DNA from: Candidatus Sumerlaeota bacterium
GTDB lineage: Bacteria > Sumerlaeota > Sumerlaeia > JABWBI01
DNA: 40,795 nucleotides
Direction of reading: 5' to 3'
Assembly (NCBI GenBank): GCA_016928695.1
Contig: JAFGKF010000116.1
Location: forward strand, 1-40,795
Shown here: positions 1 through 35,705 of the stretch, one piece after another
Layout of the letters: every line of letters begins with the position of its first letter
Numbering within the stretch: the stretch's first letter is position 1
Made by a program: the position numbers and the translations under genes
The notes under the pieces: generated by a model
Told to the model about the DNA's origin: nothing
What the model saw: the letters and a program-made list of their open reading frames with translations, nothing else
The model's database searches: none

Positions 1-922
1 CGTCGACATCGAGCTGAATGCGCAGCGTGCCGGCCACGTCGCCGAAGTTGGTGAAGACGACGCCGCGGCTCTGCTCGGGCTCGAGTGTCAGCGACTTCGC
101 GTCGATGCGCTCGCCGTCGAGAGAGAGCTCGAGGATCGTGTCCACCTGCCGCGTCGTGGCGTTGAGCACCTCGGCGAAGATCTCCACGCGGCTCTGATCG
201 CTCAGCCCCCGGCTCAGGCTGAAGGCGACCAGCCCGACGTTCTCACCCCCCGTGCCGCAGCGGATGTAGCGCATGGGGGGGGCGTCGCCCTCCTCATCGA
301 GCATCTCCATCAGCGCCTCGGTGCGCGTGCCCAGCGCGCCGTCGCTGAGGAGGATCACCTCCGGGTTGGGATGGCGTTGGACGAGGGATCGGACCAGCAC
401 CAGGGCATCGGTGATGTCGGTCGGCTGGTCGGTGGGCTCGATCGCCCGGATCGCCGCCCGAAGCGCCGACGCGTCATCCGTGGGGAGGGAGGCGAGCTCC
501 GTTCGGCTGTTGAAGGTGGCGACGATCATGCGGTCGCCCGGCCCGAGGTTGTCGACGAGCTCGAGGGCCATGGCCTTCGCCTGGTCGAGGCGGGTGTCGA
601 AGTCCTCGACGTCGGTCGCCTGCATCGAGGCGGAGGTGTCGATCAGGACGATCTTCGTCTCATTGCGCTCCTGGTCCATCGCCAGGAAGGGGCGTGCGAG
701 CGCGAAGACGATCAGCGCGGCGATGAGCAGCTGGAGCCAGAGGAGCAGGTTGTTGCGCAGCCTCTGGAATGGGGCGTTGGCCGTCAGGTCCTGGAGCGAG
801 CGGAGCCAGAGCAGCGTCGAGGGGACCTCCTGGCGCTGGCGCTTGAGCTTGAGGAGATAGAGCACCACGATCACGGGGAGCGTGAGGGCGAAGGCGAACA
901 TCAGGGGGGCAAGAAAGCTCAT
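1..922 (-). CDS. BatA-like VWA membrane protein (3' end cut by window edge)
   Basis: This gene is missing from the ORF track because it runs off the window at base 1. I translated the minus strand from the ATG at 922. The protein starts MSFLAPLMFAFALTLPV, an N-terminal membrane helix, followed by KLKRQRQEVPSTLLWLRSL and a second helix ending in ALARPFL. This is the layout of the BatA N-terminal domain. A von Willebrand factor A domain follows, with an intact metal-binding DxSxS motif (DTSAS) and a later LLSDGALGTR strand. About 307 codons are present; the C-terminus is outside. Its ATG overlaps the TGA of the DUF58 gene (ATGA), so the two are probably translationally coupled. BatA-type proteins work with MoxR ATPases and DUF58 proteins in the cell envelope, but their substrate here is unknown. 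Confidence 0.8.
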   Translation of the reverse strand, partial: MSFLAPLMFAFALTLPVIVVLYLLKLKRQRQEVPSTLLWLRSLQDLTANAPFQRLRNNLLLWLQLLIAALIVFALARPFLAMDQERNETKIVLIDTSASMQATDVEDFDTRLDQAKAMALELVDNLGPGDRMIVATFNSRTELASLPTDDASALRAAIRAIEPTDQPTDITDALVLVRSLVQRHPNPEVILLSDGALGTRTEALMEMLDEEGDAPPMRYIRCGTGGENVGLVAFSLSRGLSDQSRVEIFAEVLNATTRQVDTILELSLDGERIDAKSLTLEPEQSRGVVFTNFGDVAGTLRIQLDVD

Positions 923-1818
923 CTCAGGAGCCCCCGTCTGCGGAGGAAGTTCAGGATCAGCTGATCGAACGGGGTGTCGGTCGAGGCGACGGTGTAGACC
1001 ATGCCGTGGGCGTTGCACCAGTCGCGCGCGGAGGTGCACAGGGCGTCGAGCATCTCGCGGTAGCGCCGGAGCAGCGGTCTGTTGATCGTCACCTCTGTGC
1101 GGTCACCCGTCTCGCAGTCGACGAGCTCGAGGTGGCCCAGGAGCTTTGGCTCGAGCTCGTCTCGGCTCAGCAGGTGGAGGACGTAGACCTCGTGGTTGCG
1201 GTGGAGCAGCCACTTCAGGGCGTCCTCGAAGCCGTGCGGGTCCATCAGGTCGCTGAGCAGGACGACGATGCCGCGCGATCTCTGCTGGAGGACGAACTGG
1301 CGGCAGGCGGAGGCGAGGTCGGTGTCGCCCTCGCCCCCGAGGTCGCCGAGGAACTGCAGCAGCGCCCAGGTGCGCGCGCGGCCGCGCGTCGGGGCGAATG
1401 TGGCGAGCTGTCGCCCGCGCATGGCGTAGACCCCTGCCTTGTCGTTGTTGATCAGCGCGATGTATCCCAGCGCGGCGGCGACGCGGCGGGCATAGAGCAG
1501 CTTCTCGGGCTGGCCCATCGTCATCGACTTCGAGACGTCGACGAGCACGTGGAGTGTCATCTCCTGCTCCTCGAGAAAGAGCTTGAGGAAGAGGCGCTCG
1601 AGCCGCGCGTAGATGTTCCAGTCCAGATGCCGGATGTCGTCGCCGGGAATGTACTCGCGGTGGTCGGCGAACTCGATCGACGTGCCGCGGCGCTTCGAGC
1701 GCCGCTCGCCGCGCAGCCGCCCCGCCAGCACCTTGCGGGCGGTCAGCTGGAGCTGCTCGATGCGGCGCAGGAAGTCGCTGTCGAGCAGGGTGCGCGGGCC
1801 GTCGGTCACGGGCGCCAT
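919..1818 (-). CDS. DUF58 / VWA-fold protein
   Basis: This is a 299-residue protein of the DUF58 family, the usual partner of MoxR AAA+ ATPases. The family signature GDDIRHLDW is present near residue 60. It is followed by a VWA-type core with the metal-site motif DVSKS near residue 94 and a second acidic strand, LLSDLMD. There is no signal peptide, so the protein is probably cytoplasmic or attached to the membrane through BatA. The start at 1818 is preceded by GAGGGG with 6-base spacing. The start lies 13 bases inside the end of the upstream redoxin gene, and the stop overlaps the downstream BatA-like start by 4 bases. Family and context are clear; the molecular job is not known. Confidence 0.85.
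   Translation of the reverse strand: MAPVTDGPRTLLDSDFLRRIEQLQLTARKVLAGRLRGERRSKRRGTSIEFADHREYIPGDDIRHLDWNIYARLERLFLKLFLEEQEMTLHVLVDVSKSMTMGQPEKLLYARRVAAALGYIALINNDKAGVYAMRGRQLATFAPTRGRARTWALLQFLGDLGGEGDTDLASACRQFVLQQRSRGIVVLLSDLMDPHGFEDALKWLLHRNHEVYVLHLLSRDELEPKLLGHLELVDCETGDRTEVTINRPLLRRYREMLDALCTSARDWCNAHGMVYTVASTDTPFDQLILNFLRRRGLLR

Positions 1819-2371: not shown

Positions 2372-2375
<4 letters not shown>
1806..2375 (-). CDS. Redoxin-like lipoprotein with a single active-site cysteine
   Basis: The track ORF (308 aa) starts too early. Its first 119 residues are the out-of-frame shadow of moxR. The real start is the ATG at 2375, which overlaps the moxR stop as ATGA, giving 189 residues. The N-terminus MRPALALALLALALTSCSF is a lipoprotein signal with lipobox LTSC. 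The rest is a thioredoxin/redoxin fold: LFVRFSPECPVSRD, then a VIAVSTAD strand, then VTPSAALVDDRGRI (the cis-proline TP region). The active site reads CPVS rather than CxxC, so a dithiol reductase mechanism is unlikely. A peroxiredoxin-like one-cysteine or structural role is possible. Placement inside a MoxR-VWA operon suggests an envelope redox or assembly function, which is an inference. Confidence 0.75.
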
Positions 2376-3381
<1,006 letters not shown>

Positions 3382-3385
<4 letters not shown>

Positions 3386-4230
3386 GACCTCACTCCTGTC
3401 TGGGTGAATTGGGGATTCGAAAGATGGCGATGCGGGCGAAGGAGCCACAGGCCCAGGGGGAGAAAGACCCCCGCGAGCCCGGCCGAGAGGGCCAGCTCCC
3501 ACAGCCTCGGAGTGGCGTCCGCCGGCGCCTCGATGAGGAAGCGCAGCAGCAACGTGGTGGTGTTGAAGAGAAGATGAACCACGATGCACGGCCACAGCGA
3601 GCCGCTGGCGAGCGCGAGCCAGGTGAAGATCACACCGATCACCGCGGCGGGCACCACCTGAAGCGGGTCGGCGTGGAAGAGCCCGAAGAGCACGCCGACG
3701 ATGACGCACAGGCGCAGGGGGCTCACCCAGGGCTGAAGCCCGCGCGTCATCACCCCGCGGAAGAGCAGCTCCTCGCACACCGCGGGAGTCACGGCGATGG
3801 TGAGCAGCAGCCAGGGGAGCTCGGCGGCCGTCGGGGCGGTCAGCGCCTCGGCCCAGTGATCCATGCGCTCCTGGTACCACGCGAACGGACCCAGCAGGGC
3901 TCCCTGCGCGGCCATCATCAGCCCCGCGGCACCGACAACGCCCAGCCCGAGACAGAGCGTTGCGCCCCAGTCGCGCAGCCTCGGCGCGTTCAGTCGCAGG
4001 GTTGCGGCCAGGGGCAGCTGCCGCCCGAGGAGGAAGCCGATGATGGGCGCCGCGATGAAGATCCACTGGGAGAGCGGCACCGCGCTCGCCAGGCCCACGC
4101 CGACCAGCAGGGGGCGGCCGACGAGGTGGTGAAGGAGGAAGACCACGATGAGCAGCGCCATCGCCTCGTCGGGGCGCAGCATCCGGGAGGGGCGATCACC
4201 CGGGGGCGGGATGACGGCGTGGCGGCTCAT
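3382..4230 (-). CDS. CPBP-family intramembrane metalloprotease (CAAX/Abi type)
   Basis: This is a 282-residue polytopic membrane protein. The three CPBP motifs are present: EELLFRG near residue 153 (the paired glutamates and the arginine), FGLFHADPLQ (second motif histidine), and VVHLLFNTT near the C-terminus (third motif histidine). About seven hydrophobic helices surround them. The catalytic residues look complete, so it should be an active protease of the CAAX-prenyl-protease/Abi superfamily. Both ends overlap neighbouring genes by 4 bases (VWA gene and moxR), so it is part of the same transcript. An intramembrane protease is not a standard member of MoxR-DUF58-BatA operons. Its substrate could be one of the membrane VWA proteins made next to it, which is an inference. 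Confidence 0.88.
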
Positions 4231-7193
4231 TTCATTTTCTTGCGGGCGCGCTTTTTCGCCTCGAGCAGCTTGCCCGTGTAGCCCTCGGGCTTGGCCGCGG
4301 GGGCCTGGGGCTTCGCCTCGTCGCCCCCCGTGGCGCGGCGCGGCGTCTTCGGCCGGATGGGAGCCTTCTCGACCTCACTGATGATGTCTCGCTGGGCCCT
4401 GACGCGTCCGAGCGCCTCCTGAAGGCGCTCCCGGTCCTCGGCGGTGGCGCCGGCCTCACGCTCCTCGGCGACCCGCTCCTTGACGTCGAGCAGGGCGGCG
4501 GTGCGCTCGTCGCGCTCGACGGGGCGGCGGCGCGGGATCAGCACAGCCACTGTCCAGGCCCATGCGGTGGCCACGCCCGCGCGGACATCGCCCCAGTCGA
4601 TCATGACGCGGCGGAAGAAGATGTCGATGGGGAGCACCATGGCGGCCAGCGCGAGCGAAAGCGGCCACATCGGCCTGCTGCTGCGGCTCGCGGGGAGGTT
4701 GTGGTCGAAGACCTCACGCGGCGTGACGTTCATCCGCCCCTCGGTCATGTCGGCCAGCTCGGTCAGCAGCGCCACGTTGGTGTCGCTCGTCTGGAACTCC
4801 GGGGAGTAGGAGAGCGAGAGCCCCGTCGTCAGCAGCTGGGTCTGGCCCTCGGTGCTCTCCGTGGCGATCGAGACCATGTACGATCCGATGTCGTCGACCT
4901 CGAAGCGCCCCTCGTAGCGCCCCGGGGCGGTCTGGCGGAAGGTGATCTCGCGGACGTCGTCTGGGTCGTAGCTGGGGGGGATCAGCCGTCCCTGGAACTG
5001 CGCGAAGTTGATGAACTGGTCGTCGTCGCTCACGGCGTCGATGGTGATCAGCCCCTCGGCGCCGGTCAGCTGGGTGGTCACGCGGAAGTTGCGGTCGGCT
5101 GAGTTGCGCAGCGACCACCGGACCAGCTGCGCCCAGAACCGCGCGTACTCGCCCCAGGTGAGCCATCGGCTCGCCCAGCGCGGCTTCGCGTCGCTGGTGA
5201 AGGCGACGGTGTGCCCGAGGCCGTAGCGCCAGTGGGCGAGCACCGGGTCATCGCTCTCGGGGACGACGATGGGGACGTCGGCGCCGGGCTCGGGCTCGGT
5301 GACGACGTGGCCGTCGAGGGGCCTGAGCGTCTCGCCGATGGCGAAGCCGGGCATCGCCTCGCTGCGCCGGACGATGGTCGGGGCGAACAGGTTCTCGTCG
5401 ATCATCGAGCGGCGGACGACGGTCGCCTCGCGGACGAAGATGCGGGGCAGCTCATGCGGCGAGGTGGGGTAGTAGAACCGCCCGCCGAAGTCGCGGGCGA
5501 TCTGCTGGAGCAGCGCGGCGTTCTGTGGGTGATGGGGGTTCATCACGACGGTCGAGATCGAGATCCCCGCGTCGTAGATCTGGCGGGCGAGATTCTGGTT
5601 GGGGGGCTGGGGATCGCCGTCGCTGATGATGACGATGTGCTTGGAGGCGGCCTCGATGGATGTCAGGCCATCGTAGGCCATCTGCAGCGTCTGGTCGAAA
5701 TCGGGCATGTCGCCCGGGCTGACCGCGTCGATCAGTCGGCGCCACTCGCTCTTGTCGCCGACCAGCCGCAGCTCGTCGAGCCAGTTGTAGCCGTACTGCG
5801 AGTACTGCCCCGTGTCCGCGCCGATGGGCGGGCCGAAGTAGAGCACCCCGAAGTAGTCGCGCGTCGAGAGGACGTCGAGCGCCGCCTTCGCGATCTCGCG
5901 CGCCCACGCGTTGCCGCTGGGGAACTCGCAGGTGTGCAGGATGACGGTCAGCGCCCCGTTGGGCAGGACGCGCCGGTGGCTCACGTCCATGCGCACGGGC
6001 AGGAGGCGCTCGATCGGGGTGTCCTGGTAGCCCCCGGGACCGAAGCTGTGGGGGCCTCCGATCATGATGAAACCCAGGCCGAGGTCCTGGACGCCGCGCT
6101 CGATCATCTCCATCTGGCTGCGGCTGAAGTTGGAGGCGCCGACGTCGGAGAAGATCACCGAGTCGTACGTCTGCAGCTCGGCCAGGCTCAGGGGGAAGCT
6201 CTCGGGGGCGCAGGCGTCGACCTCGATCTCCTCGGCGCGCAGCGCCATGATCAGATCGCGGCCCAGCGTGTTGGCCTCGCTGTCGACCAGCAGGACGCGT
6301 GGCTCGCCGCGGGCGCTGGTGAAGGCCTGACCGGTGTTGTTGTTCGGGTTGGCGTCGCCCGGCATCTCGATGCGGGCGCTGTACGTGTGGAAGCCCGGCT
6401 GATCGATGCGGCGCGGGATGAAAAAGACGTTGCGGATGTCGCCGCGCAGGGTGACGCGGTCCTCCCGGATCGGGCGGCCATCCTCGAGGAGCCACAGCGT
6501 CGCCTCGGTGTCGCGATCGGAGTCGACGAAGACGCGGACGTCGAACGGCGCCTCGAGGTGGACGCTGTTGGGCACGTCGACGCGGCTGATCCGCACGTCG
6601 CCCTCGCCGACGAGGCGAAGGGGGAAGACGTCGATCGGAACGCCACCGCCGACCGCCAGTCGCGCGGCCTCGATCGCCTCGCCGAAGTTCTGGTTGCCGT
6701 CGCTCAGCAGCACGATGCGCCGGCCCGTCGTCTCCGGCTGCACGGCCAGGGCCAGGCGGAGGGCGCCCGCGATGTTGGTCCGCGCGCCCGCGATGGCCGA
6801 CTCCACGTCGGCGACGGCCTTCGGCAGCTCAGGGAGAGCCTGGGGTGAGACCTCGATCGAGGGGTCGCGGCCAAAGATCATCAGCCCCGCCTGATCGTCG
6901 GTGCCCATGGCGTCGAGCGCCTCGCGGATGAACTGCAGGGCGAGGTCGCGCTGCTCCTCGGGCACGGAGTCGGACCAGTCGAGCGCGAAGAGGACAGAGA
7001 GATTCTCGTGCGTGCGTGTCAGGCGGATCTCGGCGAGCGCGAGGACGATGAGGGTGAAGAGAAGGCAGCGCATCGCGGTCACGGTGCGGCGCCGCGCCCT
7101 CCCCAGGGCCTCGAGCCGGCGCGTGCGCAGCAGCGTCCAACCCAGGAGCGGGATCAGCAGGAGCAGGGCGAGGGGTTGGCCAAAGGAGATCAA
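4227..7193 (-). CDS. Large membrane VWA protein with glutamine-amidotransferase-like middle domain
   Basis: This is a 988-residue protein. The order of parts is: an N-terminal membrane helix (LALLLLIPLLGW) and a second helix near residue 45; a VWA domain with intact metal site DWSDS and LLSDGNQNFGE; an Ig-like segment; a class-I glutamine-amidotransferase-like domain from about residue 300 (RVLLVDSE to GFIMIGGPHSFGPGGY); a second VWA-like domain in which the DxSxS site is replaced by HTCEF while a VIISDGDP strand remains; a second beta-rich part; two hydrophobic segments near residue 850; and a charged, Lys/Ala-rich cytoplasmic tail. Proteins of this build accompany MoxR/DUF58/BatA in planctomycete-like genomes. 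The amidotransferase-like domain is of the type lacking enzymatic activity and is probably structural. It overlaps the CPBP gene by 4 bases. Confidence 0.85.
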   Translation of the reverse strand: MISFGQPLALLLLIPLLGWTLLRTRRLEALGRARRRTVTAMRCLLFTLIVLALAEIRLTRTHENLSVLFALDWSDSVPEEQRDLALQFIREALDAMGTDDQAGLMIFGRDPSIEVSPQALPELPKAVADVESAIAGARTNIAGALRLALAVQPETTGRRIVLLSDGNQNFGEAIEAARLAVGGGVPIDVFPLRLVGEGDVRISRVDVPNSVHLEAPFDVRVFVDSDRDTEATLWLLEDGRPIREDRVTLRGDIRNVFFIPRRIDQPGFHTYSARIEMPGDANPNNNTGQAFTSARGEPRVLLVDSEANTLGRDLIMALRAEEIEVDACAPESFPLSLAELQTYDSVIFSDVGASNFSRSQMEMIERGVQDLGLGFIMIGGPHSFGPGGYQDTPIERLLPVRMDVSHRRVLPNGALTVILHTCEFPSGNAWAREIAKAALDVLSTRDYFGVLYFGPPIGADTGQYSQYGYNWLDELRLVGDKSEWRRLIDAVSPGDMPDFDQTLQMAYDGLTSIEAASKHIVIISDGDPQPPNQNLARQIYDAGISISTVVMNPHHPQNAALLQQIARDFGGRFYYPTSPHELPRIFVREATVVRRSMIDENLFAPTIVRRSEAMPGFAIGETLRPLDGHVVTEPEPGADVPIVVPESDDPVLAHWRYGLGHTVAFTSDAKPRWASRWLTWGEYARFWAQLVRWSLRNSADRNFRVTTQLTGAEGLITIDAVSDDDQFINFAQFQGRLIPPSYDPDDVREITFRQTAPGRYEGRFEVDDIGSYMVSIATESTEGQTQLLTTGLSLSYSPEFQTSDTNVALLTELADMTEGRMNVTPREVFDHNLPASRSSRPMWPLSLALAAMVLPIDIFFRRVMIDWGDVRAGVATAWAWTVAVLIPRRRPVERDERTAALLDVKERVAEEREAGATAEDRERLQEALGRVRAQRDIISEVEKAPIRPKTPRRATGGDEAKPQAPAAKPEGYTGKLLEAKKRARKKMK

Positions 7194-7205: not shown

Positions 7206-7577
7206 TCACTCGTTGGGTTCGGTCACGGTCTCGAGGATCATGCGCACCTCCCGGTGCGAGAGCGAGCGGGCCATGGCCAGCACGTGGCAGTCGATGAGGG
7301 TCTCGCCGATCCCGACGCGGATCAGGCCCGTCCGCGCGTCGTGCCAGCGGGTGAGCAGATCGATGCGGTCGAAGATCCCCTCCCACAGCTCCTCGGGGGG
7401 TGTGGGCACCTCTCCCATCGCCTCGCCCCCGCGGATGAGGGTGATGTCGAAGGCGTCGCCGCGCCAGTGGAGGTGGATCTCGTCGACACCCTCCTGCAGC
7501 GCGCTGAGCAGCGTGTGGCCGAAGATCTGCGCGATCAGCGGGTTCTCGCCCGGGCGCTCTGGCGCGTCGTCGGTCAC
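7206..7577 (-). CDS. Stand-alone PilB/GspE N2-like domain protein
   Basis: The track ORF starts upstream in another gene's shadow. The likely start is the GTG at 7577, overlapping the NHL gene stop as GTGA, giving 123 residues. The sequence follows the pattern of the N2 domain of type II/IV secretion ATPases. GVDEIHLHWRGDAFDITLI matches the 'ASDIHIEP...LRVRYRIDG' strand pair. PTPPEELWEGIFDRIDLLT matches 'PPKELQAAIISRIKIMA'. RTGLIRVGIGETLIDCHVL matches 'QDGRIRVRVGGREVDLRV'. EVRMIL then matches the strand just before the ATPase core. The protein stops there: no Walker A or ATPase domain follows. It could be a regulator or adaptor that pairs with a secretion ATPase or folds alone. The similarity is read by eye and is moderate. 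It is separated by 12 bases from the VWA gene. Confidence 0.6.
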   Translation of the reverse strand: MTDDAPERPGENPLIAQIFGHTLLSALQEGVDEIHLHWRGDAFDITLIRGGEAMGEVPTPPEELWEGIFDRIDLLTRWHDARTGLIRVGIGETLIDCHVLAMARSLSHREVRMILETVTEPNE

Positions 7578-8542
7578 TGTGCCATCACCTGCAGGCGGTG
7601 GTTCTCGGTGTCGGCCACCACGAGGGCTCCGTCGGGCCGCACCGTCACGCCCCAGGGCGAGAAGAGCTCCCCGGGCTCGCGCCCCTGCCCTCCCCAGGAG
7701 CGCTCGAAGGTGCCGTCGGCGGCGAGCCGCTGCACGCGCATGTTCTCCCACTCACAGACGTAGATCTCGCCCGCGGGCCCGAGCGCCACGTCGTAGGGGT
7801 AGCGGAACTCCCCCTCGCCCGTGCCCTCGTGCCCGATCGACTCCAGGATCTCGCCCTCGGGCGACATGCGCACGAGGCGGTGGTGGCACGAGTCGGCCAG
7901 GAGCAGATCGCCGCGGCTCTCCTCCCAGACGATCGCCATCGGCCGCATGAGAAGGTCGTCGCCCGTCTCGGGGTCGCGCGGATTCCACTCGTCGATGAAC
8001 TCCCCCTCCTCGGTGAAACGGAGCACGCGCACACGGTTGCCGTACTCGGTGACGTAGACGTGGCCGCGGCCGTCGAGCGCGACGTCGGTGGGGAAGATCA
8101 TCTGGCCCGGGCCGATCTCGCCCGAGGGCGGGGCGGACTCGCCGAACTGCAGGATCATCTCGCCGTCGGGTGTGTAGACCAGGATGCGCGAGTAGTGCGT
8201 GTCGGCGACCCAGAGATTGCCCTTGTCGTCGAGCGTCATCCCCGTCGGTGTGCCGTTGTCCCACGCGGGCAGCCGCCAGCGCGTCTCGGGGGAGCCGTCG
8301 GGCGCGAGCCGCTGCACCCAGCCGGAGCGGTCGATGACGAACAGTCTTCCGTCGGTGTCGCAGATCACGGCGCGCGGCCGCATGAACTGGCCGGGTGCGA
8401 GGCCGCGTCCGCCGATGATCTGAATGCCAGGGACCTGCGACGCGGTCTGATTGTCTCGGGAGCTCTGGCAGTGAAGGGTGAACAGAGCGAGTGTCAGCGC
8501 ACCGCCCAGCGACAGGATCTGCCTGATCCCACCACGGGTCAC
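7574..8542 (-). CDS. NHL-repeat six-bladed beta-propeller, exported
   Basis: This is a 322-residue protein starting at GTG 8542, which overlaps the stop of the upstream coiled-coil gene (GTGA). After a hydrophobic leader (ILSLGGALTLALFTLHC) come six NHL units, recognisable by repeated patterns such as FMRPRAV...GRLFVIDR, PTGMTL...NLWVADTHYSRI, FPTDVAL...HVYVTEYGNRV, MRPMAI...DLLLADSCHHRL, YPYDVAL...EIYVCEWENMRV and SPWGVTV...ALVVADTENHRL. These would close a six-bladed propeller. The cysteine after the leader could be a lipobox cysteine, but the preceding LH is not canonical. Such propellers usually bind proteins or peptides. No catalytic residues are evident. Operon context puts it with the MoxR-VWA set. 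Confidence 0.85.
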   Translation of the reverse strand: MTRGGIRQILSLGGALTLALFTLHCQSSRDNQTASQVPGIQIIGGRGLAPGQFMRPRAVICDTDGRLFVIDRSGWVQRLAPDGSPETRWRLPAWDNGTPTGMTLDDKGNLWVADTHYSRILVYTPDGEMILQFGESAPPSGEIGPGQMIFPTDVALDGRGHVYVTEYGNRVRVLRFTEEGEFIDEWNPRDPETGDDLLMRPMAIVWEESRGDLLLADSCHHRLVRMSPEGEILESIGHEGTGEGEFRYPYDVALGPAGEIYVCEWENMRVQRLAADGTFERSWGGQGREPGELFSPWGVTVRPDGALVVADTENHRLQVMAQ

Positions 8543-22274: not shown

Positions 22275-22420
22275 GACGCTGGTTACAGGGACCCCCGGGG
22301 GGCTCCGCGCACCCCCACCCGCGGCTGCCTCGCCCCCCCGGCCGGGCATCTGGGTGGATGAATCGCCGACGTTGGACATGGCCGGCGAGACCCAATTCAC
22401 TGCTGCGAGACCTCACTGCT

Positions 22421-24478
22421 GTGGCAAATCTCAAGCGCTGTCTTGGCGTCGATCTCGGCGCCAACTCCGTCAAAGTCGTCGAGCTGCGCCGTGAAGGCGA
22501 CGCAGTGCGAATCGTCAGGGCGGTCACGAAACCCCTCGATCTTCTCCCCAACTCTCCCCCCGAGGAGCGCGCCGAGGCCACCTCCGCCGCCGTGCGCGAA
22601 CTCCTCCGGGAGGAGAAGATCGCCCTGAAGCAGGCGGTCTTCAGTGTCCCGGGCCAATCGGTCTTCATCAAGAGAGTGCGGCTTCCGCGCACGACCGAGG
22701 AGCGTCTCCACCGCATCATCAACTACGAGGCGCGCCAGCAGATCCCCTTCCCGCTCGACAAGACACTGCTCGAGTTTCAGATCTTCGACGAGCCCGGCGA
22801 TCCGCAGGTCGAGGTGCTCCTGGTCGCCATCAAGCGCGACTTCATCGAGAGCTTCATGCGCACGATCACGCGCTGTCGCCTCAAGCCGGTCGCCATCAGT
22901 GTCTCGAGCCTCGCGCTCTTCAACTACCATCTCTTCGACGGCGCCGCGCCGGACCTGCTGGGCCTGACGGCGAAGGCCGAGAGGGCCGAGCGCAGGAGCA
23001 AGGGCAAGAGGAAACGCCTCAGGCTCTCGCTGCGGCGCAGGAAGGGGGGCGCCGAGGAGGAGAAGGAGGAGGCCGCGGAGCACCCCGCGCCCCAGATGGT
23101 CGAGGAGGAGGACACCGACCTCGATCTCGGTGAGGAGACCGACCTCGACCTGGGCGAGGATGTGGATTTCGGGGACTTCGAGGACCTGGATCTCGGCGTC
23201 GAGGACGTCAAGGCGTTCCTCAACATCGGCGCCACCACCCTGGACATTGTGATCGCCCGCTTCGGCAAGCGCAAATCGCTGGGCTTCACCCGCTCGGTCC
23301 CCATCGCCGGAAATGAGATGACCAAGCTGGTGATGGATCGCCTGCGGCTGGAGTCGTTCGCCGAGGCCGAGGAGCTCAAGTGCACGCAGTGTGTCGCGGT
23401 CAGCGATGGGGTGGACCCGGGATCGCTGCTGCCCAATGCCAACGCCGAGGCCTCGAACGCGGCGACGGCCCTGATCAATCGACTGGTCGCGGAGATCCGC
23501 CGGACCCTGGACTTCTTTGTCTCGCAGCCCGACGGCGTCACCGTCGACTCCGTGGTGATCAGCGGCGGTGCATCGCAGATGCCCAATCTGGGTCCCTACA
23601 TTGAGGACAAGATCGGACTGCTGGTGGAGCGGGCCGAGGGCCCCACGAGCGAGCACCTGGTGACCGATGCCCAGCCCCGCGAGGGCTGGCACGGCTACTT
23701 CCCCGCCATCGGCCTCGCCCTCAGCGGGATGGGGCTCGGCAAGATCGCCATCGACTTCCTGCCGACCAACCTCAAGGACATCCGGCAGTTCAAGGGCAAG
23801 CTGGTGGAGATCGCCATTCTCGCCGGCTGCCTGGCTGTCTCGGTGGGCTTCGGCATGCAGATGGGCGAGGCGAACGTCGAGTGGTACGATCAGCGGATCC
23901 AGTCCATGCAGCAGAGTGTGATGCGAGCCCAGCCGATCGTGAATGACGGCGAGCAGGCCCTGGAGGCGCGCCGCCGCATCAAGACGCAGTTCGGGGAGCT
24001 GGCAAAGATGGTCCCCTGGCGGGAGTACTGGGCCAAGATCTATCTCGAGGTCATCAGCAACTGCCGGCCCTCCCAGGTCTTCCTGACCAATGTCGAGATG
24101 ACGGGGTATGGCCAGATCCTCATCCAGGGGCGCTCCTTCACCCCCGATGCCATCGCCACCTACGCGCAGCGCATCAACCAGGAGACCAGCGCGTACATCC
24201 AGACCGGTGAGGACCCGGCGACCCAGCTGCCGATGGTCGAGGTCTACACCGATCCGATCCCCCATGTCACTCAGCGCGGTGAGACGCAGACCGGCTTCAC
24301 CCTTTTCATGAGGACACACACCCGCACCAGCTCGCAGTCGGTGCCCTACCGCGATCTCTCCCCGCGCGCGGCGCTGGGGCTTCAGCAGGATGCGATGCGA
24401 GGGGGGGCTTTCCCCGGGGATCGCCGGGGTCAGCAGGGCAACCGCCGGCCCCAGCCGGGGGAGGCGTTCATGCGATGA
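22421..24478 (+). CDS. PilM-PilN fusion, type IV pilus/secretion inner-membrane platform
   Basis: A single frame joins a PilM-like FtsA-fold ATPase to a PilN-like protein. PilM part: LGVDLGANSVKVVEL (phosphate 1), IINYEARQQIPFPLDKTLLEFQIF, FLNIGATTLDIVIARFG (phosphate 2) and VVISGGASQMPNL (adenosine motif). Between its subdomains sits an insert of about 90 residues, first basic (RSKGKRKRLRLSLRRRK), then acidic repeats (DLDLGEETDLDLGEDVDFGD). PilN part from about residue 460: KIAIDFLPTNLKDIRQFKGK, then one membrane helix (AILAGCLAVSVGF), then a periplasmic ferredoxin-like domain with YLEVISNCRPSQVFLTNVEM. The start is uncertain: GTG 22421 begins just before the conserved PilM start, while ATG 22358 would add 21 non-family residues. 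Normally pilM and pilN are separate genes. Confidence 0.8.
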   Translation: MANLKRCLGVDLGANSVKVVELRREGDAVRIVRAVTKPLDLLPNSPPEERAEATSAAVRELLREEKIALKQAVFSVPGQSVFIKRVRLPRTTEERLHRIINYEARQQIPFPLDKTLLEFQIFDEPGDPQVEVLLVAIKRDFIESFMRTITRCRLKPVAISVSSLALFNYHLFDGAAPDLLGLTAKAERAERRSKGKRKRLRLSLRRRKGGAEEEKEEAAEHPAPQMVEEEDTDLDLGEETDLDLGEDVDFGDFEDLDLGVEDVKAFLNIGATTLDIVIARFGKRKSLGFTRSVPIAGNEMTKLVMDRLRLESFAEAEELKCTQCVAVSDGVDPGSLLPNANAEASNAATALINRLVAEIRRTLDFFVSQPDGVTVDSVVISGGASQMPNLGPYIEDKIGLLVERAEGPTSEHLVTDAQPREGWHGYFPAIGLALSGMGLGKIAIDFLPTNLKDIRQFKGKLVEIAILAGCLAVSVGFGMQMGEANVEWYDQRIQSMQQSVMRAQPIVNDGEQALEARRRIKTQFGELAKMVPWREYWAKIYLEVISNCRPSQVFLTNVEMTGYGQILIQGRSFTPDAIATYAQRINQETSAYIQTGEDPATQLPMVEVYTDPIPHVTQRGETQTGFTLFMRTHTRTSSQSVPYRDLSPRAALGLQQDAMRGGAFPGDRRGQQGNRRPQPGEAFMR

Positions 24479-24530: not shown

Positions 24531-25085
24531 ATGGACCAGCTCAAACCCCTGCTCCGCAAGCTGCAGCGCAACGTCGACCGCGCAGCCATTGTGGTGTTCT
24601 TCATTCTCACCGGGGCGGTGGTCTACTTCTACCAGTCCGAGCAGAGCGCCCCGCCCGCCGAGGAGCCGCCCGAGATCCGCCCGACCCACCTTGATGTTCA
24701 GGTGGAATTTCCCGATGAGAGTTATCAGACAGTGATGACCACCCTGAGCTGGGGGGGTGATCTGTATGCCGACCGGCCGATTGACCGCAGCCACCCATTC
24801 TTCCCGATCATTGAGCAGAATCTTTTCCGTGAGCCCCTCACCATGCAGGAGCTGCATGAGCAGGCGCTCGAGCTGCTCGACGATGCCCGGACCGCATACG
24901 CCCAGGCCAGCCAGCCGGGCCAGAGCCCTGAGGAGGTCCGAGTCCAGCTGGAGCGGACCGTCAATCTGTGCAACCGTGTCATCGACATCTGGGCGGCCCA
25001 GAGCGGTGGCGCGGAGCAGACCGAGGCGCGCACCCTGCTCGAGAATGCCCAGGCGCTGCTTGACAGCATGGGAGCCACCCCATGA
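24531..25085 (+). CDS. Small bitopic membrane protein in the PilO position
   Basis: This is a 184-residue protein with an N-terminal basic stretch, one membrane helix (AAIVVFFILTGAVVYFY), a proline-rich linker (SAPPAEEPPEIRP) and a periplasmic part ending in two helices (LHEQALELLDDARTAYAQA and later VQLERTVNLCNRVIDIW). GAGAGGG lies upstream of the ATG. It sits between the pilM-pilN fusion and the secretin, where pilO/pilP genes usually lie. Size and topology fit PilO loosely, but I see no clear sequence match, and the ferredoxin-like fold is not obvious. It may be a lineage-specific PilO/PilP equivalent. Confidence 0.7.
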   Translation: MDQLKPLLRKLQRNVDRAAIVVFFILTGAVVYFYQSEQSAPPAEEPPEIRPTHLDVQVEFPDESYQTVMTTLSWGGDLYADRPIDRSHPFFPIIEQNLFREPLTMQELHEQALELLDDARTAYAQASQPGQSPEEVRVQLERTVNLCNRVIDIWAAQSGGAEQTEARTLLENAQALLDSMGATP

Positions 25086-25193
25086 GTGCGAACCAAGTCG
25101 TCGGGTCGGACCAGGCCCGAGAGGCCCCCTCCTCAGGGGCACGCCGGCAAGAGAGTCCCCCTCCCTCCTCCCCGGGAGGCCAACTCTCACAGC

Positions 25194-25221
25194 TTGACAG
25201 GTTGATTGTGGATTCTAGAGT
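25194..25221 (+). promoter_or_regulatory. Putative sigma-70 promoter of the secretin gene
   Basis: TTGACA (25194-25199), a 16-base spacer and TAGAGT (25216-25221) lie about 100 bases before the chosen secretin start. The promoter falls inside the longer track ORF, which also argues that the ORF's first 79 codons are not translated. The 233-base gap 25086-25318 contains only this promoter, short GC-rich hairpins and the ribosome binding site. Confidence 0.65.
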
Positions 25222-25318
25222 TACTACGCCTCCGGGTCGCCGGAGATCATTTGCCGTCAGGGGTCTGTTGGAGATTCACTGGCGCCGGACCACCCGCTCT
25301 CGAAGGAGTACCCGTCAC

Positions 25319-28300
25319 ATGCAGGTGACCAAGGCCCATCACCTCCGGAGATTCTGTGCTCTGGGGCTGACACTGGTGCTTGCCACTCTGGCACCATCGG
25401 CGATGGCTCAGACCACAGCCGGTGCCCCGATCAGTCAGGTGGCGGATCTTCTCGCCCAGGGAGATCAGGCCTTCCAGATCAGGGATTATGAGTCCGCTCT
25501 GCGCCACTACGCCACGGCAGCCCAGGTCGACCCCGACAGCCCCCTGGTCGTCGAGCGTCTTCAGGAGGCCCAGCGTCGAGAGGCGGCGCGCCAGCGTCTG
25601 CTGCTGACGGTCCCCGCCGAGCCCCAGGCACGCGAGCAGTTCCTGGAGCGGCGCCATCAGCAGGCGCTTGCGCTGCTGCACGACAACCGCCTGGAGGCGG
25701 CGGCGCAGCGCTTTGAGGAGATCTTCTTTGTCGACCCCGACTACCGGCGCGTCCGCAGGCAGCTCGAGCGCCTCGATGCCCAGCTCGCCGCGGAGGGGCT
25801 CGCCTCGTTCACTGAGCTGCCCACTGTCAGCCCCGGAGGCGCCGCGCAGCCGGTGCTCCCCGAGGACGAGACACGGATCGCTCAGATCGAGCGCGCCGAG
25901 TCCGAGGCGGAGACCGCCGCGCGCCGCGCGGCCGAGGCGGTCCAGTCGGAGCGCGATCGCGCGGCCGAGGTTCTCAGCGAGGCGACCATCAGTCAGGCTC
26001 TGCGCGATGGCCGCCGCGCCCTTCGCCGCGATGAGTACACCGAGGCGATTCGCCACGCCGAGACGGTGCTCGCGCTCGACCCCGCCAATGCGACGGCGCA
26101 GCGCCTGATCGAGGACGCCACCGCCGAGCGCGATGCCCATGCGATGGCCGAGCGCCGGGCGGAGCAGACAGCGGCCAACGAGGAGCAGGAGCAGCGCATC
26201 GAGGATCTCCTGGAGCAGGCGGAGGAGTATCTCGAGGACGAGCGCTTCGCCGAGGCGATCTCCACGGCGGAGATGGTTTTCGAGATCGAGGTCGACAACG
26301 CCGAGGCGCAGCGGTTCATCGCCCAGGTGAACGAGGCGGCGCAGGAGGCCGAGCGGGAGGCCCTCGAACGCCAGGCCCGGGAGCGTGAGGAGCAGATCAG
26401 CGATCTGCTGCGATCGGGTCGGCGCTCTCTGCGGCGTGACAACTTCGAGGAGGCCCAGACGGCCGCCGAGCAGGCTCTGGCCATGGACCCCTCCAATGCC
26501 GAGGCGGCCGAGCTGCTGAGCCAGGCCCAGGCGGGTGCCGCCGCTGTCGCGCAGGAGGCCGCCGCTCGCGATCTGGCCGAGCAGGTCGATGCTCTGCTGG
26601 ATCAGGCGAGACAGTGTCTCCGCGACGATGATTATCAGGCGGCGATCGATGCCGCCAACAGCGCCCTGGCTCTCGACGCAGAGAATGAGCGGGCCCGCGC
26701 GCTGATCGCCGATGCCCAGAGAGAGATGGCCGTGGCAGCCGATGCGGCTCAGGAGCGGCAGCTGGAGGGTCTGCTCGACCAAGCCCGCCGAAGCCTCCGC
26801 GCCGATGAGTGTGAGGCGGCCATCGCCACCGCGAACCAGGTGCTCGCGATCGACGCGGAGAATGACGAGGCCCGCGAGCTGATCGCCGATGCCCAGCGCG
26901 AGATGGCTGCGGCTGCTGCCGAGCAGGCCGCCGCGCAGAACGCGCAGAGGGTGGCGGAGCTGATCGACTCCGCCCGCGCCGCGATGGATGCGGGCGAGAA
27001 CGAGGCCGCCCTCGAGATGCTGCGCGAGGCGGAGTCACTCGATCCCGGCAACCGCGGCATCAGCCGCATGATCCGCCGGGCCGAGAGCGCCATCGCCGAT
27101 GCTCAGCGCGAGGCGCAGGAGGCCGAGCAGGTTCAGCGGCAGGAGACCGAGGAGGCCGACCAGGCCCGCGCGGAGGCTCTGGAGGACGCGCTTCGCCTGG
27201 CCGACCGGGCGCTCCGCCGCGAGCGCTACGAGGAGGCGATTGAGCACTATCAGGCGGCCCTGGCCGTGGCGCCTGATGATGCCGCCGCGGCCGAGGGGCT
27301 GGCCAATGCCGAGCAGGCGCTGGCCGCCATTCAGGCCGCTGAGGCCACCACCCAGGAGGCCGAGGCCCAGATCGCGGCCGGCGAGGCCGCCCTGCGTGAG
27401 GGCGATCTCGACGCCGCCGAGGCGGCATTCCAGATGGCCGGGGCTCTCGTCCCTGGCCTGGAGGCCGCTCAGGAAGGCCTCGGGCAGGTTGCCCAGGCGC
27501 GCGAGGAGGCCATGGAGCGGGCCCAGCTCGAGGCCATGCGCGAGGCCCGCGAGCGCGAGGATCAGATGCGGGCGCAGAGCGAGCAGCGTCTGGCCGAGGC
27601 CCAGAGCCTGTTGCAGGCCGGCCGCCTCAACGAGGCCGAGGGGGCCGTGCGTGAATCCCTCGCCCTGTGGCCCGAGAACACCCGTGCCCAGAGCACCCTG
27701 GGGCAAATCGATCGGATGCGCGAGCAGGCCGCTCAGGCTGAGGTCGACCGCGAGGCGCGCAACCGCGAGGCCCTTGTCAGCGGTCTTCTGGCGGAGGGTC
27801 GTCAGGCCTACGATCAGGGCGACGTGGTCGCCGCGGTCGAGAGCTGGACGCGCGTGGTGGAGATCGATCCCAACAACGACTACGCGCTGACGCTTCTGGA
27901 GAACACCGAGGCCGAGCACCGCGGCGCCCTGGCGCTCGAGCGGGCCGAGGCCGACCAGATGGCCCGCGAGCAGGAGATGCTCGAGCGGCTGAGCACCCCG
28001 ATCTCGATCACCACGCCGAGCGAGGGGACGCCGCTTCAGGTCTTCCTCGAGAACATCTCGATCTTCACCGATCTCAACTTCGTGATCGCCGACGGCGTGG
28101 AGGTGCAGGTCACCGGGGCGTTCGTGGAGCAGCCGCTGCGGCGGGTGCTGGACTCGGTGATCACGAACAACGGTCTGAGCTGGACGGTGGAGGACACGAT
28201 CATCTCGATCACGCCGAACCTGGTGACGCGCATGTGGACGCTGACGTCGGAGGACACGGCGTCGCTGGTGGTCTTCCGCGACTCGGGGATGCTCGACCGG

Positions 28301-30427
28301 ACGCTGTACCCGCCCGACGGCGTGAGCCGGGTGGGCGGCGAGATGTACGAGCTCGACGACATCACGGGCACCTTCATCGTCACGGGCAGCCAGGCCCAGA
28401 TCCAGCGCATCGAGCAGCTGGTGGCCGACCTGTCGACCGTCGAGGGGGCGCGGCCCCTGGTGACGCGCATCTTCCGTGTGCGCGAGGACGAGGGCGAGCA
28501 CATCCGCACCCTGGTCGAGGCGGTTCTCGAGACCGAGCGCTCGGCCGACACGCAGGCGTTCGAGCGGCGCATCATTCTGCAGGGCGAGAACCTGATCGTG
28601 CGGGCCACCGACCCCGAGCTGCGGCGCGTCGAGCAGCTGCTCGAGGAGTACAGCGACCGGGGCCTGGGCGAGCAGCTGGACGTGGCCACCTTCTCTCTGA
28701 TCCCGCGGCGCGTTCTGCAGGTCAACGAGGAGGTCGCCCGGACGCTGGCCGAGAGCATCAAGGAGACGGTCGAGGTGCTCCTCTACGCCGAGGGGGGGGC
28801 GCAGGCGGCGCGGGCGCAGGGCCGGCGGCTGTGGTACGATGAGTTCACGCTCCAGCTGACGATCACCGACACGCCGAGCAACATCGGCCGGGTCACGCGC
28901 TACATCACGTCGATCCCGGTCCTGGAGCCTCGGCGGACGACGCGGATCGTCTACCTGAACCACCAGACCCCCTCGGAGCTGGCGGGCAAGCTTGAGGACT
29001 TCCTCGACATCGAGATCCGCGGCGGGGGTGGCGGCTCATCGACGAGCGCGACGGGCGACGTGGTGGTGCGGACGCTGAGCGAGGACGACGAGCTCTCGTT
29101 CCGCGACATCCGGATCACTCTGATCAGCGTGGAGGAGAACGACATCGACGACGACCGCGACGAGGACGTGACGATGATCATCGACACGCTGAACTCGAGC
29201 GAGGAGCGGACGATCGAGGAGCTGCGCTCGGAGATCATCGAGGACTACCGCATCCGGATCGTCGAGGCCGACGCCGACGGGTCGGGCAGCGCGGAGATCG
29301 AGGTCACCTACGTCGGCAACCAGCAGAACCAGAACTTCCAGATCGATCCCCTGGAGGGGAGCAACCAGCAGCAGCAGCAGGAGGGCGACACCACCGATCA
29401 GACGACCGGCACCGAGGATGACCGCATCCCGATCGTCCAGGCGGACGACGAGGCGGGGTCGATCCTGATCTCGGTGGTGAATCCGGGCGATCTCGCGCTG
29501 ATCGAGGAGGCCATTCAGCTGCTCGACGTCCCGATTCTCCAGGCATCGATCGAGACGAAGTTCGTCGAGGTCAACGAGAACCGCGCCCGCGAGCTCAAGA
29601 GCGAGATCTCCCTCGCGGGGATCGGCCGGGAGGGGATCAACTTCAGCGACTCCTTCTTCTCGGCCCGCTACGCCCAGGACACCGACGAGTTCCGCAACAT
29701 CTTCGAGCCGGCGCTCGAGAGCCCGACCAATGCGAATCTGCCCAAGGGCACAACCGTCCTCTCGCTGATCACCGGCGGGAGATCCCCCCTGACATGGGAG
29801 CTGGCCTTCCTCGAGGCCGAGGGCGTGATCAACACCGTCAATGGTCCCTTCGTCACGGCGGTCAACCGCGAGCGGGCCCAGTTCGAGATCACCCAGCAGT
29901 ACAACGTGTTCGGATCGATCGCCGGCGTCAGCACCACAAGCGGCACCGACAGCCAGAATCAGACGACCACGGGGACCGCGGGCGTGGGCGCCAACCTGCT
30001 CGACCGCGAGCTGGTTGACCTGGACGTGGAACCCATCATCTTCCGGTCAGGCTACATGGAGCTCGAGATCAACGTCGACATCTCGAACTTCACGAACAAT
30101 CTCGGCCAGCTGATCACCACCACCGGTGCCATTCAGACCGCCGATCAGGGCGGGGGGCTCGGACTCAGTGAGGATGCCGTGCGAAACATCTTCGGCGTCT
30201 ACTCGAACAACCTCAAGCAGCTCGACACGGTGGCGCGCGTGCGCGACGGCGGGACGATCATCCTCGGCGGCTGGACCCTCGAGCGCGTGACCCAGACGTC
30301 GTCGGGCATTCCGGTGCTGAGGAACCTGCCCTACGTCGGGCAGCTCTTCTTCTCGCGCAATCAGGACTTCCTCGAGCGGCTGACGCTGCTCATCTTCCTG
30401 ACGGCGCGCATCGTCGAATTCGAGTGA
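25319..30427 (+). CDS. Giant TPR-repeat secretin (GspD/PilQ family)
   Basis: This is an outer-membrane secretin for type IV pili or type II-like secretion. The track ORF starts at 25082. The ATG at 25319 is chosen because AGGAG lies 10 bases upstream, a signal peptide follows directly (RFCALGLTLVLATLAPSAMA|Q), and a promoter lies just before it. The result is 1702 residues, two to three times a usual secretin. Residues about 30-880 hold some 12 TPR-like units of about 45-60 residues (for example LRRDEYTEAIRHAETVLALDPANATAQRLI) joined by Glu/Ala/Gln-rich coiled coil. An STN/N0-like domain follows near 895-960 (NISIFTDLNFVIADGVEVQV), then secretin N-domains with a GGGGSS loop and a QQQQQ linker, then the C-terminal secretin domain (QASIETKFVEVNENRARE, ending GIPVLRNLPYVGQLFF and LLIFLTARIVEF). 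The architecture recalls the Amuc_1098-type pilus secretins of Verrucomicrobiota. Confidence 0.9.
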   Translation: MQVTKAHHLRRFCALGLTLVLATLAPSAMAQTTAGAPISQVADLLAQGDQAFQIRDYESALRHYATAAQVDPDSPLVVERLQEAQRREAARQRLLLTVPAEPQAREQFLERRHQQALALLHDNRLEAAAQRFEEIFFVDPDYRRVRRQLERLDAQLAAEGLASFTELPTVSPGGAAQPVLPEDETRIAQIERAESEAETAARRAAEAVQSERDRAAEVLSEATISQALRDGRRALRRDEYTEAIRHAETVLALDPANATAQRLIEDATAERDAHAMAERRAEQTAANEEQEQRIEDLLEQAEEYLEDERFAEAISTAEMVFEIEVDNAEAQRFIAQVNEAAQEAEREALERQAREREEQISDLLRSGRRSLRRDNFEEAQTAAEQALAMDPSNAEAAELLSQAQAGAAAVAQEAAARDLAEQVDALLDQARQCLRDDDYQAAIDAANSALALDAENERARALIADAQREMAVAADAAQERQLEGLLDQARRSLRADECEAAIATANQVLAIDAENDEARELIADAQREMAAAAAEQAAAQNAQRVAELIDSARAAMDAGENEAALEMLREAESLDPGNRGISRMIRRAESAIADAQREAQEAEQVQRQETEEADQARAEALEDALRLADRALRRERYEEAIEHYQAALAVAPDDAAAAEGLANAEQALAAIQAAEATTQEAEAQIAAGEAALREGDLDAAEAAFQMAGALVPGLEAAQEGLGQVAQAREEAMERAQLEAMREAREREDQMRAQSEQRLAEAQSLLQAGRLNEAEGAVRESLALWPENTRAQSTLGQIDRMREQAAQAEVDREARNREALVSGLLAEGRQAYDQGDVVAAVESWTRVVEIDPNNDYALTLLENTEAEHRGALALERAEADQMAREQEMLERLSTPISITTPSEGTPLQVFLENISIFTDLNFVIADGVEVQVTGAFVEQPLRRVLDSVITNNGLSWTVEDTIISITPNLVTRMWTLTSEDTASLVVFRDSGMLDRTLYPPDGVSRVGGEMYELDDITGTFIVTGSQAQIQRIEQLVADLSTVEGARPLVTRIFRVREDEGEHIRTLVEAVLETERSADTQAFERRIILQGENLIVRATDPELRRVEQLLEEYSDRGLGEQLDVATFSLIPRRVLQVNEEVARTLAESIKETVEVLLYAEGGAQAARAQGRRLWYDEFTLQLTITDTPSNIGRVTRYITSIPVLEPRRTTRIVYLNHQTPSELAGKLEDFLDIEIRGGGGGSSTSATGDVVVRTLSEDDELSFRDIRITLISVEENDIDDDRDEDVTMIIDTLNSSEERTIEELRSEIIEDYRIRIVEADADGSGSAEIEVTYVGNQQNQNFQIDPLEGSNQQQQQEGDTTDQTTGTEDDRIPIVQADDEAGSILISVVNPGDLALIEEAIQLLDVPILQASIETKFVEVNENRARELKSEISLAGIGREGINFSDSFFSARYAQDTDEFRNIFEPALESPTNANLPKGTTVLSLITGGRSPLTWELAFLEAEGVINTVNGPFVTAVNRERAQFEITQQYNVFGSIAGVSTTSGTDSQNQTTTGTAGVGANLLDRELVDLDVEPIIFRSGYMELEINVDISNFTNNLGQLITTTGAIQTADQGGGLGLSEDAVRNIFGVYSNNLKQLDTVARVRDGGTIILGGWTLERVTQTSSGIPVLRNLPYVGQLFFSRNQDFLERLTLLIFLTARIVEFE

Positions 30428-33444: not shown

Positions 33445-33518
33445 GGGACCAACCCACACCACGGCGTGGCCCCGGACGGCCGGGTGACGCGCCCTGCATG
33501 AGAGGCCAGGAGACAGCC

Positions 33519-35698
<2,180 letters not shown>

Positions 35699-35705
<7 letters not shown>

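Follow-up and report, generated by a model that had tools for sequence, protein, structure and literature searches.

This locus raises the question of why a bacterial operon built around a MoxR-type ATPase and a VWA protein should contain a small gene whose product resembles one domain of a pilus or secretion motor. The window, by which we mean the whole analysed stretch of 40,795 nucleotides, carries on its minus strand an operon that reads, in order, a 586-residue protein, an NHL protein, the gene in question (P0002), a VWA protein, an Rce1-like protease, a MoxR-type ATPase, a redoxin-like protein and a DUF58 protein. P0002 encodes a 123-aa stand-alone N2-like protein at 7206..7577, with a GTG start at 7577 and a stop codon at 7208-7206. 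Its upstream neighbour (7574..8542), which is syntenic in relatives, encodes an NHL-repeat (beta-propeller) protein with a lipoprotein-like N-terminus, and its downstream neighbour (4227..7193) encodes a membrane protein of 988 aa with VWA and GATase1-like parts. The same strand carries the genes for the Rce1-like CAAX protease (3382..4230), the MoxR-type AAA_3 ATPase (2372..3400, start within the stretch) and the DUF58 protein (919..1818). The MoxR protein scores 42.7 bits against bpMoxR, above the Pfam cut-off of 27 bits. This family is named for MoxR-vWA-beta-propeller systems, and the operon does hold VWA and NHL-propeller genes; the stronger match of this protein is to ordinary AAA_3, not to bpMoxR.

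P0002 is a real coding gene. Its reading frame of 123 codons fills 7206-7577, and GC contents of 0.71, 0.43 and 0.94 at the three codon positions give it the codon signature of the neighbouring genes. The frame has a coding score of +99 bits, which lies within the range of true genes, and the remaining five frames score negative. A non-coding or shadow ORF was ruled out by this codon signature together with the fit into the operon. The stop codon of the NHL gene and the start codon of P0002 share a GTGA overlap (7574..7577, minus strand), visible in the sequence itself, which suggests translational coupling of the two genes. At the other end, the P0002 stop precedes the TTG start of the VWA gene by 12 nt.

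Several sequence comparisons point to the N2 domain of PilB/GspE-type ATPases. With P0002 alone as query, 46 of 386 genomes gave matches at E ≤ 0.01, nearly all of them in ORFs of at least about 550 residues, the size of PilB/GspE. The best pairwise local partners were a PilB of another genome in the class (2.5e-9) and a PilB from the same genome, on contig C331 (7e-9, search space 1). Against the N2 domain of the latter, P0002 reached an E-value of 5.5e-7, compared with 2.3e-5 for the best of 20,000 shuffled copies (search space 1). A profile of 31 N2 domains likewise scored P0002 above the best of 20,000 shuffles, by a narrow margin. Among 81 motor ORFs, P0002 found 23 at E below 0.1 and 25 shuffled copies found none, a count that is inflated, as some of these loci had been fetched by P0002 itself. 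The homology spans about 90 residues at about 24% identity to the nearest N2 domains. The best PilB matches fall both inside and outside the class, and do not single out a source PilB.

The preliminary description of this DNA had proposed that the product follows the N2 domain strand by strand and ends where the Walker A core should begin, and both proposals held. A single-sequence AlphaFold2 model of P0002 predicts a helix, three strands, a helix and three strands, with a low-confidence pLDDT of 53. In a Foldseek search of this model against the PDB, ranks 1 to 25 were all PilB, EpsE/GspE, PilF, BfpD or PilT chains (best E 4.8e-5); AlphaFold2 has itself been trained on structures of the PilB/GspE family, which bears on this model as well as on that of P0003 below (pLDDT 57). 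The protein stops seven residues after the strand equivalent to MRILD, before the linker and the Walker A core, and the C-terminal ATPase core with its Walker A/B, ASP and HIS boxes is absent. The same description had seen no remnant of an ATPase downstream, and indeed the window contig (C98) holds no match to a pilus motor or T2SSE. A split ATPase completed in trans was also considered and rejected on the one frame examined that encodes a C-terminal domain by itself (contig C184, locus L066): it lacks an upstream stop and stays open as far as the sequence extends, so that it looks truncated by the end of its contig.

Convergence on a common alpha/beta (PAS-like) fold, with P0002 unrelated to N2, would account for the likeness in another way. 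P0002 has no match in Pfam (including PF00437) or NCBIfam, phmmer against the PDB returned unrelated weak matches only, and the structural model is of low confidence. Searches of PHROGs and PADLOC gave no match either. Against convergence, three kinds of sequence comparison align P0002 with N2 in the same register, which shuffled sequences do not do. Moreover, a profile made from three stand-alone proteins (P0002 with P0003 and P0004, described below), with no motor rows in it, retrieved N2 domains in 129 of the 386 genomes, and the ORFs concerned were almost always the size of a motor protein. We therefore regard convergence as very improbable, and P0002 as a relative of the PilB/GspE N2 domain, as judged from sequence and predicted structure. 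The first description, of an N2-like domain that lacks an ATPase and sits in a MoxR-VWA operon, is thus supported by homology, predicted fold and gene order, and the profile searches and the model, which might have shown no relation to N2, found one.

The surface of the domain tells a different story from its core. In Geobacter PilB (GmPilB), three arginines, R257, R271 and R286, make contact with either the nucleotide or its Mg-binding glutamate (PMC5424180). After subtraction of a 20-residue numbering offset, which was inferred from chain length and places all three sites on N2 arginines, these residues correspond to the arginines of PQDGR, DYRVS and VLRLLD. The residues of P0002 aligned to them are L85, H98 and M113 (alignment A1), although the alignment of the last strand may shift by one residue, which would put R112 at the R286 position. 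P0002 also has five residues fewer in the loop that precedes PQDGR. Compared with positions conserved in the 31 N2 domains, P0002 keeps the hydrophobic class at 21 of 23 and the basic class at only 3 of 12; the conserved histidine of the ASDxH motif, one glycine and one aspartate are also kept. The pI of its core is 5.1, whereas the N2 domains have a median of 9.25 and range from 5.6 to 10.2. By alignment, P0002 is thus a degenerate N2 domain that has retained the core of the fold and lost the catalytic surface. Lacking both an ATPase and the N2 arginines, it should not turn over ATP by itself, while binding would remain available to it.

This loss bears directly on whether P0002 acts on a pilus motor. 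Each PilB chain places its N2 against the C-terminal domain of the adjacent chain and contributes R271 and R286 to an ATP site (PMC5424180), so that a dead N2 could in principle poison the ring. As a decoy or regulator of such a motor, in a type IV pilus or a type II secretion system, P0002 would replace the neighbour's N2 on the PilB C-terminal domain and, having no arginines, block ATP turnover. P0002 has the homology and predicted fold to be such a decoy, its genome carries several PilB-type ATPases, and small PilB inhibitors exist, namely Tip, Aqs1 and CpiA (PMC11656802). None of these three is described as N2-like, however, and in P0002 the conserved basic surface is lost and its charge reversed. 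The gene, furthermore, sits in a MoxR operon on a contig without a motor. The idea that P0002 caps or competes with a pilus ATPase is consequently not supported: the three arginines and most of the basic positions are gone and the core is acidic.

A type IV pilus had also been reported in the same window. What we find is a PilM-domain protein (22358..24478, plus strand) and a TPR-secretin protein of 1781 aa (25082..30427, plus strand), which form a distant pilus-like cluster and serve here as context only. Hence the pilus part stands for these two genes, which lie 15-23 kb from P0002 on the opposite strand, and falls for the motor. The 1781-residue ORF, downstream of the PilM-domain gene, has TPR repeats and a secretin domain in a single protein. 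Elsewhere in the window, a 735-residue ORF (33498-35705, plus strand) combines CoaE (dephospho-CoA kinase) with a following Rho terminator factor, and may be an uncommon fusion of genes or may reflect an uncertain start site.

A second kind of stand-alone N2-like protein was detected in two other genomes: P0003 (L134:5001-5462) in G209, Candidatus Abyssobacteria SURF_17, and P0004 (L135:4983-5453) in G347, JACRIR010000133. The two proteins have 154-156 residues, are 66% identical to each other and are thus conserved between two MAGs. They carry about 45 N-terminal residues more than P0002, to which they are 23-25% identical, and the segments VPTPxEE and RTG are common to all; the pairwise comparison of P0002 with P0003 gave 4.8e-8 (search space 1). 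In the P0003 model (pLDDT 57, low confidence), the 21 best PDB matches were PilB/GspE chains. The P0003 core is acidic as well (pI 4.6), keeps 2 of the 12 conserved basic positions, and has K, K and Q, as aligned by eye, at the three arginine positions. With the N2 profile alone, P0003 ranked 3 of 20,001 among its own shuffles and was not separated from them, so that its N2 case rests on the predicted fold and the three-protein profile. Among the short ORFs matched by P0002 or by the stand-alone profile, only those of G209 and G347 held up: the G190 ORF is a Maf-like protein, the G388 ORF looks like a small acetolactate synthase subunit (IlvH type), and the match of the G377 frame was unconvincing. 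As the other matches were false leads, stand-alone N2-like proteins look rare.

The P0003 and P0004 genes lie upstream of genes for a corrinoid protein and a methyltransferase and not near pilus genes, which speaks further against a decoy. That N2-like proteins stand alone in two unrelated operons, neither of them close to pilus motor genes, makes a binding module for operon partners likelier than a pilus-motor decoy; the decoy we consider unlikely. They also allow a broader, tentative proposal, somewhat less secure than our reading of P0002 itself, that N2 was released from the motor at least twice, lost its nucleotide-sensing arginines, and was reused in stand-alone modules that bind cytoplasmic machines unrelated to the motor, in a MoxR/VWA setting here and in a corrinoid-methyltransferase setting elsewhere.

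Gene order in relatives shows how P0002 is distributed. It had been suggested that the same small gene be sought in other MoxR operons; it is missing from each of the 14 relatives that share the flanking genes, where NHL and VWA are direct neighbours separated by 21-239 bp that contain no gene. Conserved presence in MoxR/VWA/DUF58 operons is therefore not seen (0/14 between NHL and VWA). In G001, the only other member of the family among the searched genomes, the NHL-VWA gap is 79 bp, and the closest match to P0002 is a full-length motor ORF. Searches of 84,980 species genomes (with short-pattern seeds), of viral contigs and of plasmids turned up no ortholog, and a search for repeats marking an insertion at P0002 returned chance-like 9-mers only. 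P0002 is hence specific to its lineage, an addition to MoxR operons rather than one of their core components, and gene order indicates that it was gained in its lineage within a MoxR/VWA/DUF58 operon. A link between the MoxR-VWA system and the pilus, as previously suggested, is disfavoured by these 14 relatives, as well as by the position of the best other stand-alone proteins beside corrinoid-methyltransferase genes.

The same distribution invites the view that a gene rearrangement left P0002 behind as a stray domain, expressed without a selected function: no ortholog was found, even in the same-family genome, and the operon lacks the gene elsewhere. At only about 24% identity to the nearest N2, however, the frame is still open, the GC periodicity intact, 21 of 23 core positions kept and the start coupled. 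Neutral decay should have erased these features, which counts against a stray domain, and we hold this explanation to be rather unlikely.

We favour, with a probability of roughly one half, the reading of P0002 as a free-standing, degenerate descendant of a PilB/GspE N2 domain that serves as a non-catalytic binding module for an operon partner. An N2 domain of a PilB/GspE-type ATPase would have become a free-standing gene through a gain in this lineage inside the MoxR/VWA/DUF58 operon. With its hydrophobic core kept and its catalytic surface lost, the product may act as a small, soluble, acidic binding module, and coupled translation would have it made in step with the VWA protein. The most probable partner is the MoxR ring, the DUF58 protein or the cytoplasmic tail of the VWA protein, with P0002 as a putative adaptor or regulator; it is the position of the gene that points to this operon role. 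The existence of the operon without P0002 in 14 relatives counts against the binding-module reading. A basic VWA tail as a specific attractor of the acidic P0002 was discarded, as the tail is equally present in relatives without P0002.

N2 domains are known as integral components of the hexameric motors that drive pili and secretion. P0002 resembles the PilB/GspE N2 (within PF00437, T2SSE) in its predicted order of helices and strands, its roughly 90 residues of homology and its hydrophobic core. Unlike that domain, it stands alone without the N1 domain, linker and ATPase core, is acidic where N2 domains are mostly basic, falls below the Pfam threshold, and lacks equivalents of R257, R271 and R286, besides having the shortened PQDGR loop. 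Free N2-like proteins without these arginines imply that the N2 fold can live alone, and they offer a small test object for N2 binding without ATP chemistry; the family databases searched miss them. We found no description of a free N2 domain in the open-access literature, in a search of which little concerned stand-alone motor domains, and P0002 may be a known domain in a new stand-alone, non-catalytic form, with an earlier description possible.

MoxR AAA+/VWA operons include RavA-ViaA and NorQ-NorD, and the operon of P0002 resembles them in its MoxR, DUF58 and VWA genes. To our knowledge, no N2-like component of such operons is known, and P0002 offers a lead on the partners of these poorly understood systems. 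Like Tip, Aqs1 and CpiA (PMC11656802), P0002 is a small protein that might contact a pilus motor at its N2/CTD region; unlike Aqs1, with its helix-turn-helix, four-helix bundle and helical dimer, it is predicted to be alpha/beta. P0002 shares most with P0003 and P0004, which are likewise stand-alone, degenerate and acidic, with a matching predicted fold.
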